64,000 nt of DNA from Lineus longissimus (lineage: Eukaryota > Nemertea > Pilidiophora > Heteronemertea > Lineidae): contig NC_088316.1 in assembly GCF_910592395.1 (NCBI RefSeq), positions 14,816,001 to 14,880,000 of the forward strand, written 5' to 3'. The notes under the pieces were generated by a model. It was not told where the DNA came from. It searched no databases and saw nothing but the letters and a program-made list of their open reading frames with translations. The position numbers were made by a program, and so were the translations under genes. Below, in pieces: positions 19,042-20,972 of this stretch. Within the stretch, counting starts at the first letter, position 1. Each line of letters opens with the position of its first letter.

Positions 19042-19051
19042 CATTATATTC
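19042..19051. repeat. Left target-site duplication of foldback element 1
   Basis: CATTATATTC directly precedes the GGGTGTC terminus and is repeated exactly after the right terminus at 20963-20972. A 9-bp reading is also possible, depending on where the terminal C/G is placed. Confidence 0.85.
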
Positions 19052-19117
19052 GGGTGTCTATAAACCGAAGACCAAAGACCGAAGACCGAAGATCGAAGAT
19101 GGAAGACCCCCCCAAAA

Positions 19118-19744
19118 CTATAAAACGAAGATCCCCCCAACTATAAAAGGAAGACCCTAATGTCAACTATAAAACGAAGATCCCCCCAACTATAAAAGGA
19201 AGACCCTGATGTCAACTATAAAACGAAGATCCCCCAACTATAAAAGGAAGACCCTAATGTCAACTATAAAACGAAGATCCCCCAACTATAAAAGGAAGAC
19301 CCTGATGTCAACTATAAAACGAAGATCCCCCCAACTATAAAAGGAAGACCCTAATGTCAACTATAAAACGAAGATCCCCCAATCTATAAAAGGAAGACCC
19401 TAATGTCAACTATAAAACGAAGATCCCCCCAACTATAAAAGGAAGACCCTGATGTCAACTATAAAACGAAGATCCCCCCATCTATAAAAGGAAGACCCTA
19501 ATGTCAACTATAAAACGAAGATCCCCCCAACTATAAAAGGAAGACCCTGATGTCAACTATAAAACGAAGATCCCCCCAACTATAAAAGGAAGACCCTAAT
19601 GTCAACTATAAAACGAAGATCCCCCAATCTATAAAAGGAAGACCCTAATGTCAACTATAAAACGAAGATCCCCCCAACTAGAAAAGGAAGACCCTAATGT
19701 CAACTATAAAACGAAGATCCCCCCATCTATAAAAGGAAGACCCT
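19118..19744 (+). repeat. 49-bp tandem repeat array, left arm of foldback element 1
   Basis: About 12.8 units. Each is a dimer of related halves: CTATAAAACGAAGATCCCCC followed by CAA, and CTATAAAAGGAAGACCCTAA followed by TGTCAA. Units vary at a few positions (taatg/gatg, aactat/atctat, five or six C residues). Confidence 0.95.
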
Positions 19745-20270
19745 GGTGGTTTTAGACCCTCAAGTTCAGTTACTGCAGACTTGCACGTCATAACATGTGA
19801 CTGAGCATCTGTATTTCAACAAGCAAGCTAGCCTGAGTGCGGCGTAGTGACATAGGAGATCAGATCATTCAGGTAAATTCCGGATTTTCCTAACACTGCA
19901 TTTAGGAGTTGGCGACCGACCTGCCAGTCTCGACCCATGATGGTGGAGGACCAATTCCATATTGGCCGTGTGATCAACTAACCTGCTGGGAGCCTATGAC
20001 GATACACACACATGCACATAGAAACAGCTTCTGGACGAAGCTGAGGGCTGGCTATGATGAGTACAGTGAGAAACTAGGTCATATTGGAGCACGGCTGCAT
20101 GGTAACAGGTACGGGGCTCCCCGCCTTATGTAAACTGTGCCACTAAGCTGCTAAGGCTAGACACGACTGGTGTATTACCCGGTACACTTACTTTCTCAAA
20201 TCATTAATGTAGCATGGACCGAAAATGAAAACAAACTGTGCAGTAACTGAACATGAGAATGAAAACCATC
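19745..20270. other. Spacer of foldback element 1
   Basis: A 526-bp non-array core. Its two ends are still weakly inverted (GTTCAGTTACTGCA near the left end, TGCAGTAACTGAAC near the right end), so the arms extend a little into it. A 74-codon ORF (19909-20133, starting on a non-ATG codon) spans its centre. It has no recognisable domain and is far too short for a transposase. Nothing else is seen. Confidence 0.7.
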
Positions 20271-20896
20271 AGGGTCTTCCTTTTATAGATGGGGGGATCT
20301 TCGTTTTATAGTTGACATTAGGGTCTTCCTTTTATAGTTGGGGGGATCTTCGTTTTATAGTTGACATCAGGGTCTTCCTTTTATAGTTGGGGGATCTTCG
20401 TTTTATAGTTGACATTAGGGTCTTCCTTTTATAGATGGGGGGATCTTCGTTTTATAGTTGACATTAGGGTCTTCCTTTTATAGATGGGGGGATCTTCGTT
20501 TTATAGTTGACATTAGGGTCTTCCTTTTATAGATGGGGGGATCTTCGTTTTATAGTTGACATTAGGGTCTTCCTTTTATAGTTGGGGGGATCTTCGTTTT
20601 ATAGTTGACATTAGGGTCTTCCTTTTATTGTTGGGGGGATCTTCGTTTTATAGTTGACATTAGGGTCTTCCTTTTATAGATGGGGGGATCTTCGTTTTAT
20701 AGTTGACATCAGGGTCTTCCTTTTATAGTTGGGGGGATCTTCGTTTTATAGTTGACATTAGGGTCTTCCTTTTCTAGTTGGGGGGATCTTCGTTTTATAG
20801 TTGACATCAGGGTCTTCCTTTTATAGTTGGGGATCTTCGTTTTATAGTTGACATCAGGGTCTTCCTTTTATAGTTGGGGGGATCTTCGTTTTATAG
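20271..20896 (-). repeat. 49-bp tandem repeat array, right (inverted) arm of foldback element 1
   Basis: The same 49-bp unit in reverse orientation, again about 12.8 copies, so the two arms can pair over more than 700 bp including the tips. It carries a few private variants (tattgttgg, tctagttgg, a shortened ttggggatc unit). Confidence 0.95.
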
Positions 20897-20962
20897 TTTT
20901 GGGGGGGTCTTCCATCTTCGATCTTCGGTCTTCGGTCTTTGGTCTTCGGTTTATAGACACCC

Positions 20963-20972
20963 CATTATATTC
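20963..20972. repeat. Right target-site duplication of foldback element 1
   Basis: CATTATATTC directly follows GACACCC and matches the left copy at 19042-19051 in all ten positions. The same ten bases occur again at 28156-28165, after element 2, as part of the segmental duplication. Confidence 0.85.

Follow-up and report, generated by a model that had tools for sequence, protein, structure and literature searches.

A Mutator-type foldback transposon in Lineus longissimus and its large parent element with kinase and deubiquitinase-fold domains

The 64,000-nucleotide stretch of the Lineus longissimus genome analysed here (the window; assembly GCF_910592395.1, NC_088316.1, positions 14,816,001 to 14,880,000) carries a foldback element at 19052-20962, which we interpret as a non-autonomous, FB-type foldback DNA transposon. 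In this reading its family has been active recently, and the element is mobilised in trans by a DDE transposase of the Mutator superfamily (Mutator-like element, MULE) of the kind present in a large parent element elsewhere in the genome. We give this interpretation a probability of about 0.9. The assignment to foldbacks and MULEs is secure and is based on the element boundaries, the target-site duplications, two empty sites, the identity between short copies and the ends of the parent, and the open frames for a kinase with a viral tegument-like deubiquitinase (VTD) fold and for a transposase domain. The short element itself is an ordinary Mutator-type foldback; the unusual part is the parent and the parent's relatives.

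The element in the window (copy 1) is organised as follows:

19042-19051, no strand: left target-site duplication, CATTATATTC
19052-20962, forward strand: foldback element copy 1, non-autonomous, 1911 bp, termini GGGTGTC...GACACCC
19052-19115, forward strand: left terminal domain, 64 bp, the same as the right one, with the outermost core motif CTATAAACCGAAGACC inside
19116-19744, forward strand: left arm array, composed of 13 units of ~49 bp with two core motifs in each (Tandem Repeats Finder, TRF)
19745-20266, forward strand: spacer, no long open reading frame
20267-20898, reverse strand: right arm array, 13 units, inverted (TRF)
20899-20962, reverse strand: right terminal domain, 64 bp
20963-20972, no strand: right target-site duplication, CATTATATTC

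A preliminary description of this locus had given the coordinates, the GGGTGTC termini and a perfect 10-bp duplication, all of which were as described on re-checking, and had reported arms of more than 700 bp built from ~13 copies of a 49-bp repeat, with which TRF and the arm alignment agree. For the 49-bp unit, TRF gave copy numbers of 12.9 (left) and 13.0 (right), the two arrays being oppositely oriented; the inverted arms, each including the 64-bp tip and the 13 units, are ~730 bp long and align with one another at 96.6% over 735 columns (19045-19777 vs 20969-20239, a few columns lying outside the element). The window element has, in short, the long inverted arms of tandem units by which foldbacks are recognised. 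As a chance control for the 10-bp duplication, one of 200,000 random pairs of 10-mers from the rest of the window was identical, and the three occurrences of CATTATATTC in the window all adjoin a foldback copy. A 116-bp tandem duplication (2.0 copies, 98%) lies at 18120-18346, ~700 bp to the left of copy 1.

The arms share a core motif, TATAAA(A/C)(C/G)GAAGAYC, with 26 occurrences in the left and 25 in the right arm of copy 1, in a single orientation per arm. The tip contains one occurrence and each unit usually two; the motif was found neither in the spacer of copy 1 nor in the other 60 kb of the window. The score of the tip-to-unit alignment was equalled by one of 500 shuffles. Since this is a weak test taken alone, the case for the core motif rests on its repeated occurrence and on its presence in a paralogue, discussed below.

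The genome searched comprised 391,118,348 bp, with the window on sequence C9, and the published bootlace-worm assembly is of 391 Mb (PMC8593623; here and below, statements on published work refer to excerpts of the cited papers). A query with the 79-bp tip gave 107 candidates, of which the best-scoring 40 were scored and all 40 matched. Among the 28 regions fetched, 27 contained a paired element of 947-3944 bp, and L072 showed one tip only in 9.9 kb. These 27, together with window copy 1 and the parent on C3, amount to 29 paired insertions; a second copy in the window was left out, being a rearrangement product. Perfect target duplications were present at 27 of the 29 (20 of 9 bp and 7 of 10 bp), and the imperfect ones had one mismatch in 10 (L052) and two in 9 (L071), so that the boundaries and 9-10 bp duplications anticipated in the preliminary description are kept across the genome. 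The comparison with empty sites that it had proposed succeeded for L059 and L065, whose paralogous empty sites each contain the duplicated bases once; for L066 it failed, as the genome search matched only that copy's own two flanks. Fairly recent movement had also been proposed, and is implied by L054 and L058, which are near-identical copies at different sites. A satellite array instead of a transposon was ruled out, since copies at different sites have exact common tips and site-specific duplications. A bacterial or archaeal origin was likewise discarded, a 16-mer pattern being found in 41 contig stretches with a single match in each, which was taken as chance; two patterns gave no match in viral contigs. 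The L066 copy is inserted in a 181-residue open frame (L066:5179-5721) that reads ~100 bp into the foldback arm and for which no Pfam family was listed. This frame may be gag-like.

Tracing the protein of the L066 kinase frame through the genome led us to the parent, a 14,858-bp element at C3:10315112-10329969 with both tips perfect and GTTTCAACA (9 bp, perfect) on each side. It is the full-length relative with a Mutator-like transposase that the preliminary description had expected elsewhere in the genome. The parent ends match the spacer ends of short copies, for instance over 1857 bp at 99.3% (L070), 1038 bp at 99.8% (L066) and 201 bp at 99.0% (window copy). The short-copy spacers are pieces of one longer sequence; that of copy 1 is made of ~208 bp from one parent end and ~328 bp from the other, with a deletion joint near 19947-19948 and a 2-bp overlap. 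Judged from their sequences, the short copies are internal-deletion derivatives of the parent. Deletion joints were resolved in 14 of the 29 rows (with L066 as the reference) and form six classes. One joint is common to L054, L058, L069, L075 and window copy 1, and the arm lengths of these copies differ except between L054 and L058; this combination of the same joint with unequal arms implies that the number of arm units changes fast. Nested in the parent is a repeat of ~830 bp, absent from the short copies at the corresponding place. This insert is a shortened form of a dispersed repeat at window 12867-16049, also found in L061 and L071, which contains several inverted repeats and is probably another transposon family.

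On its minus strand the parent carries, in order, a frame with the kinase and a peptidase-like domain, small stretches matching P0122 (an NCBI gene model that contains the N-terminal stretch of the transposase), and the transposase region, where two overlapping open stretches of 188 and 738 residues lie in different frames. The 738-residue frame aligned with positions 3-99 of the 99 of PF10551 (E 8.9e-5), and 30 transposase homologues were found among 7990 candidates scored. The acidic residues D139, D209 and E350 were invariant (21/21 aligned), as was a CxC..CxH motif counted over the rows with a letter there (C541 in 19/19; C543, C552 and H554 in 20/20 each), which we take to be a SWIM-like zinc motif. 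The predicted structure had a mean pLDDT of 78.4 and a pTM of 0.54, and its sole matches in the PDB at E <=0.001 were the ISCth4 transposase (E 4.3e-5) and Hermes (E 5.5e-4), with low TM-scores of 0.13-0.21 on the length of the model, which is large and of mixed confidence. ISCth4 belongs to the IS256 family, which is related to Mutator. Target-site duplications of the Mutator superfamily are of 8-11 bp, and the Lineus element shows 9-10 bp duplications, a MULE/IS256-type DDE transposase and the CxC..CxH motif. Galileo and the P superfamily, with a 7-bp duplication and a THAP transposase, were excluded by the 9-10 bp duplications, and no THAP domain was found in Pfam scans of the 738-residue frame and P0122. 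Two pairs of similarly scoring MULE-like frames of 926-937 residues, without stops and at 28% to the C3 transposase, were also detected (C1:15978054 with C8:15065505, and C3:15028806 with C15:2447219); these are possibly other recently active families.

The kinase is seen in the L066 copy, where a 564-residue open frame encodes a protein kinase domain (PF00069, E 1.6e-30, 106.8 bits vs a cut-off of 31.7). The catalytic Lys is present in 19 of 20 homologues, and the HRD Asp and the DFG Asp in 20 of 20 each; the Lineus kinase is not a row in this count and its motifs were read separately. It belongs to a distinct family, with 85 proteins at E <=1.2e-29 and the next one at 9.5e-8 (7991 candidates scored), whose species-named members come from Lineus, corals (Desmophyllum, Oculina, Acropora, Montipora) and Mytilus. 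A related kinase gave three equal-scoring matches, at C13:11072137, C8:15198328 and C6:11376947 (40% over ~112 residues, in 360-residue open frames), and is perhaps carried by another mobile element.

In the parent, the kinase is joined in one frame to the VTD domain, upstream of the transposase and on the same strand. The VTD domain was predicted with a pLDDT of 90.9, and its structure matches are viral tegument-like deubiquitinases; the top four by Z were all of this type (15.6, 14.9, 14.5 and 12.9), followed by AvrPphB at 11.1. Its Cys is conserved in 21 of 21 aligned sequences and, over the rows with a letter there, the D-x-H Asp in 18/18 and the His in 17/18. The D-x-H arrangement is a hallmark of VTDs (PMC9741609), and the parent's domain, as modelled, combines the VTD fold with the Cys and Asp-x-His residues.

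We infer that the kinase and the VTD domain are standing parts of this MULE lineage and not a one-off capture. They seem so because of a fusion, of the order and strand of kinase and transposase kept in paralogues, and of the core motif in the arrays of one of these. A 1252-residue protein (P0269) holds kinase, VTD-like and MULE segments in a single chain; it is 29% identical to the Lineus kinase-VTD frame (491 aligned positions) and 36% identical to the transposase (446 positions). In Lineus, three paralogues (C1:14.20 Mb, C1:11.20 Mb and C14:10.29 Mb), with transposases 43-45% identical, have a kinase match ~7 kb upstream on the same strand. The one at C1:11.2 Mb is flanked by inverted arrays of a 346-bp unit at C1:11190877-11192890 and C1:11210807-11212271; further arrays lie outside that pair (C1:11186243-11187481 and C1:11220556-11221308), so the element may be bounded by either pair. 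Both full 346-bp units read contain one exact and one variant core motif 23 bp apart. This presence of the same motif in an unlike repeat unit is the best evidence here that the core motif may be the recognition site of the transposase.

It is quite unlikely, in our view, that the kinase and the VTD are accidental cargo outside the transposition machinery, picked up by gene capture as in Pack-TIRs. Capture is known for terminal inverted repeat (TIR) elements (PMC8277862), and a fourth paralogue, on C17 (transposase 42%), gave no kinase match. Against such cargo, the relative order and strand of kinase and transposase are the same in the C3 parent and in three Lineus paralogues, P0269 has them fused, and the alignments made show conserved active-site residues for all three enzymes. 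Inverted pairs of 346-bp arrays with little between them were also found at C10:7504780-7508718, C10:8219808-8222000 and C14:4281255-4287212, with no kinase or transposase match there; they are likely short members of a second foldback family.

We propose that the transposase would bind the core motif in the arm repeats, a step suggested by analogy with Galileo, cut exactly at GGG...CCC and insert with a 9-10 bp stagger. Short copies would come from aborted gap repair after excision, with loss of the middle, and the kinase and VTD would probably target either the transposase or the host's repair or ubiquitin pathways. More tentatively, and at somewhat less than even odds, this animal foldback MULE lineage may make a transposition machine of three enzymes, a kinase, a VTD deubiquitinase and a DDE transposase, in some cases as a single polypeptide. 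Phosphorylation and deubiquitination would then control transposition or protect it, and short foldbacks would be moved by the machine in trans. If true, this would be a cut-and-paste element that brings its own signalling and ubiquitin enzymes. Short copies, parent, boundaries and paralogous empty sites occur together in one genome, which makes arm-repeat binding and the role in rearrangement directly testable.

Several observations weigh against the interpretation given above. The C3 copy as assembled may not make a full transposase, because its open stretches lie in different frames, and the PF10551 score of 23.3 bits is below the curated cut-off of 27.6. Apart from itself, no match to the C3 transposase above 45% identity was found. 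The triple fusion is known from one record (P0269), in which a chimaeric assembly or gene model may have joined the three segments. The copies inspected are the best-scoring ones, and intact copies are consequently over-represented; the overlaps of the six joint classes (2, 2, 4, 2, 0 and 3 bp) are raw values.

Plant KI (Kaonashi) MULEs carry a ULP1-like protease. They resemble the Lineus parent in having a cysteine peptidase beside a MULE transposase and differ in the peptidase family, whereas Lineus has in addition a kinase, foldback arms and an animal host. Transposon-borne VTD folds with the Cys and Asp-x-His residues are known from Helitrons and Helentrons (PMC9741609); that paper assigns VTDs to Helitrons and also, among other carriers, to cnidarian genes that have transposon-associated domains. 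In Lineus, in contrast, the carrier is a cut-and-paste MULE foldback with a kinase, and the main text of that paper contains the words kinase, mutator, MULE and foldback zero times. As VTDs have so far been reported in Helitrons and herpesviruses, a MULE would widen the list of carriers. A Mutator-type foldback with a kinase and a VTD appears to be new: in the titles and abstract beginnings returned by searches of the open-licence literature, with subscription papers largely outside, the combination of a kinase with MULE, foldback or transposon was not found, and among 5.39 million papers three terminus and unit strings matched only three, all with unrelated titles.

Among foldbacks, the Drosophila FB and FB4/NOF elements share with the Lineus family the long repetitive inverted arms, a middle that is non-coding in most copies, a Mutator-type partner and a proneness to rearrangement (PMC4079207, PMC8277862). 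The Lineus arm unit and tips are not recognised as FB, and the Lineus parent has a kinase and a VTD; the likeness is by description only. Tm1, a Mutator/foldback element of Meloidogyne, also has composite arms with tandem units, duplications of 8-10 bp in 45 of 53 elements (mostly 9), and both MITE-like copies (miniature inverted-repeat transposable elements) and copies whose transposase is similar to that of the Phantom subclass of Mutator (PMC3169594). It differs in its units of ~14 bp and its asymmetric tips, and the excerpts of that paper mention neither kinase nor deubiquitinase for Tm1 (PMC3169594). Tetris of D. virilis is another foldback with tandem units in its arms (~220 bp) and 8-10 bp duplications, and it likewise reuses a stretch of the outer arm inside the units (PMC4079207). 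According to the same source, an autonomous Tetris transposase was not found, which makes Tetris an example of a foldback known without its transposase, whereas the Lineus parent has one. Galileo, with a P-type THAP transposase instead of a MULE one, provides a parallel for the arms: footprinting and electrophoretic mobility shift assays revealed extra transposase-binding sites in the tandem units of its long arms (PMC3688188); in Lineus such sites are predicted.

The window holds a second copy of the element, absent from the preliminary description, as part of a tandem repeat of element plus flank (19052-26213 and 26214-33406):

20963-26213, no strand: flank U, 5251 bp, duplicated along with the element
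26204-26213, no strand: flank of the left tip of copy 2, GCACTTAGAT; the same 10 bp are at 33397-33406, the end of the second flank copy
26214-28123, forward strand: copy 2 of the foldback element, 1910 bp, situated at the junction of the duplication, without a matching target duplication
28124-28155, reverse strand: extra 32-bp copy of the right tip of the element, between copy 2 and the right flank
28156-33406, no strand: second copy of flank U, followed by unique sequence from 33407

The flank copies differ by one substitution in ~5.24 kb and the element copies by one 1-bp indel; this near-identity implies that the tandem duplication is recent. The left junction of copy 2 falls exactly at the element tip (GCACTTAGAT followed by GGGTGTC), the original far end reads GCACTTAGATGGGC, and GGG is common to the far breakpoint and the element tip. 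On the right side, copy 2 ends with its own tip, followed by the extra 32-bp tip copy and then by CATTATATTC. With exact ends and unmatched flanks, copy 2 is thus a rearrangement product and not a simple insertion.

It is possible, although we hold this with reservations, that the duplication came about through cuts made by the transposase at the two tips of a copy on one chromatid; the cut left tip would join a target 5.25 kb off on the other chromatid, and at the right tip gap repair would abort after 32 bp and the tip be rejoined to the flank it had left. The GGG at the junction speaks against the need for such cuts, being also compatible with microhomology-mediated repair without a transposase. 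One way to such repair, which we consider unlikely, is breakage at the base of an extruded hairpin, with the GGG common to the far breakpoint CTTAGATGGGC and the element tip serving as microhomology; for Drosophila FB4, template switching in repetitive arms has been proposed (PMC8277862). Because hairpin base and element tips coincide, position alone cannot tell this breakage from cutting by the transposase. Against breakage, each junction lies precisely at a tip, and at the other copies inspected the tips are where the insertion begins and ends. Ectopic recombination between a new foldback insertion at GCACTTAGAT on one homologue and copy 1 on the other, with the 32-bp tip repeat as a separate event, is somewhat unlikely: it yields the same order and gives copy 2 the same flanks, leaving GCACTTAGAT undisturbed where the second flank ends, and rearrangements by this route are known for foldback-like Galileo copies (PMC2775673, PMC4079207), but it requires an extra, unseen insertion and a second event for a 32-bp repeat that ends exactly at the element tip.

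That the duplication is an artefact of assembling two haplotypes is very unlikely. In its favour are the near-identity of the duplicated copies and an assembly that is not fully phased and from which curation removed 5 haplotypic duplications (PMC8593623); however, this is a HiFi assembly purged of duplicates (PMC8593623), and an exact element tip accompanied by a 32-bp tip repeat is not where one would expect a false join. The maize element Ac offers a parallel to duplication by transposase-made cuts, and is a hAT element. Its alternative transposition also produces direct duplications in tandem, whose breakpoints are at the ends of the transposon and whose internal junctions are end-joined, whereas in Lineus a single MULE foldback is involved and the flank order of the product differs (PMC4270019); maize-type re-replication as such was rejected, as the flank order that it predicts disagrees with copy 2.

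Elsewhere in the window, a 57-bp inverted repeat (88%) with a 19-bp loop at 6657-6789 is MITE-like, single tRNA genes were found at 16424-16495 (tRNA-Pro(TGG)) and 42968-43042 (tRNA-Thr(TGT)), and a (TCA)25 microsatellite at 38492-38567. On the minus strand, 62300-63992 contains exons of a phytanoyl-CoA dioxygenase (PhyH) gene, four of which match Lineus longissimus LOC135493597 at 98%, the next protein being at 65%.
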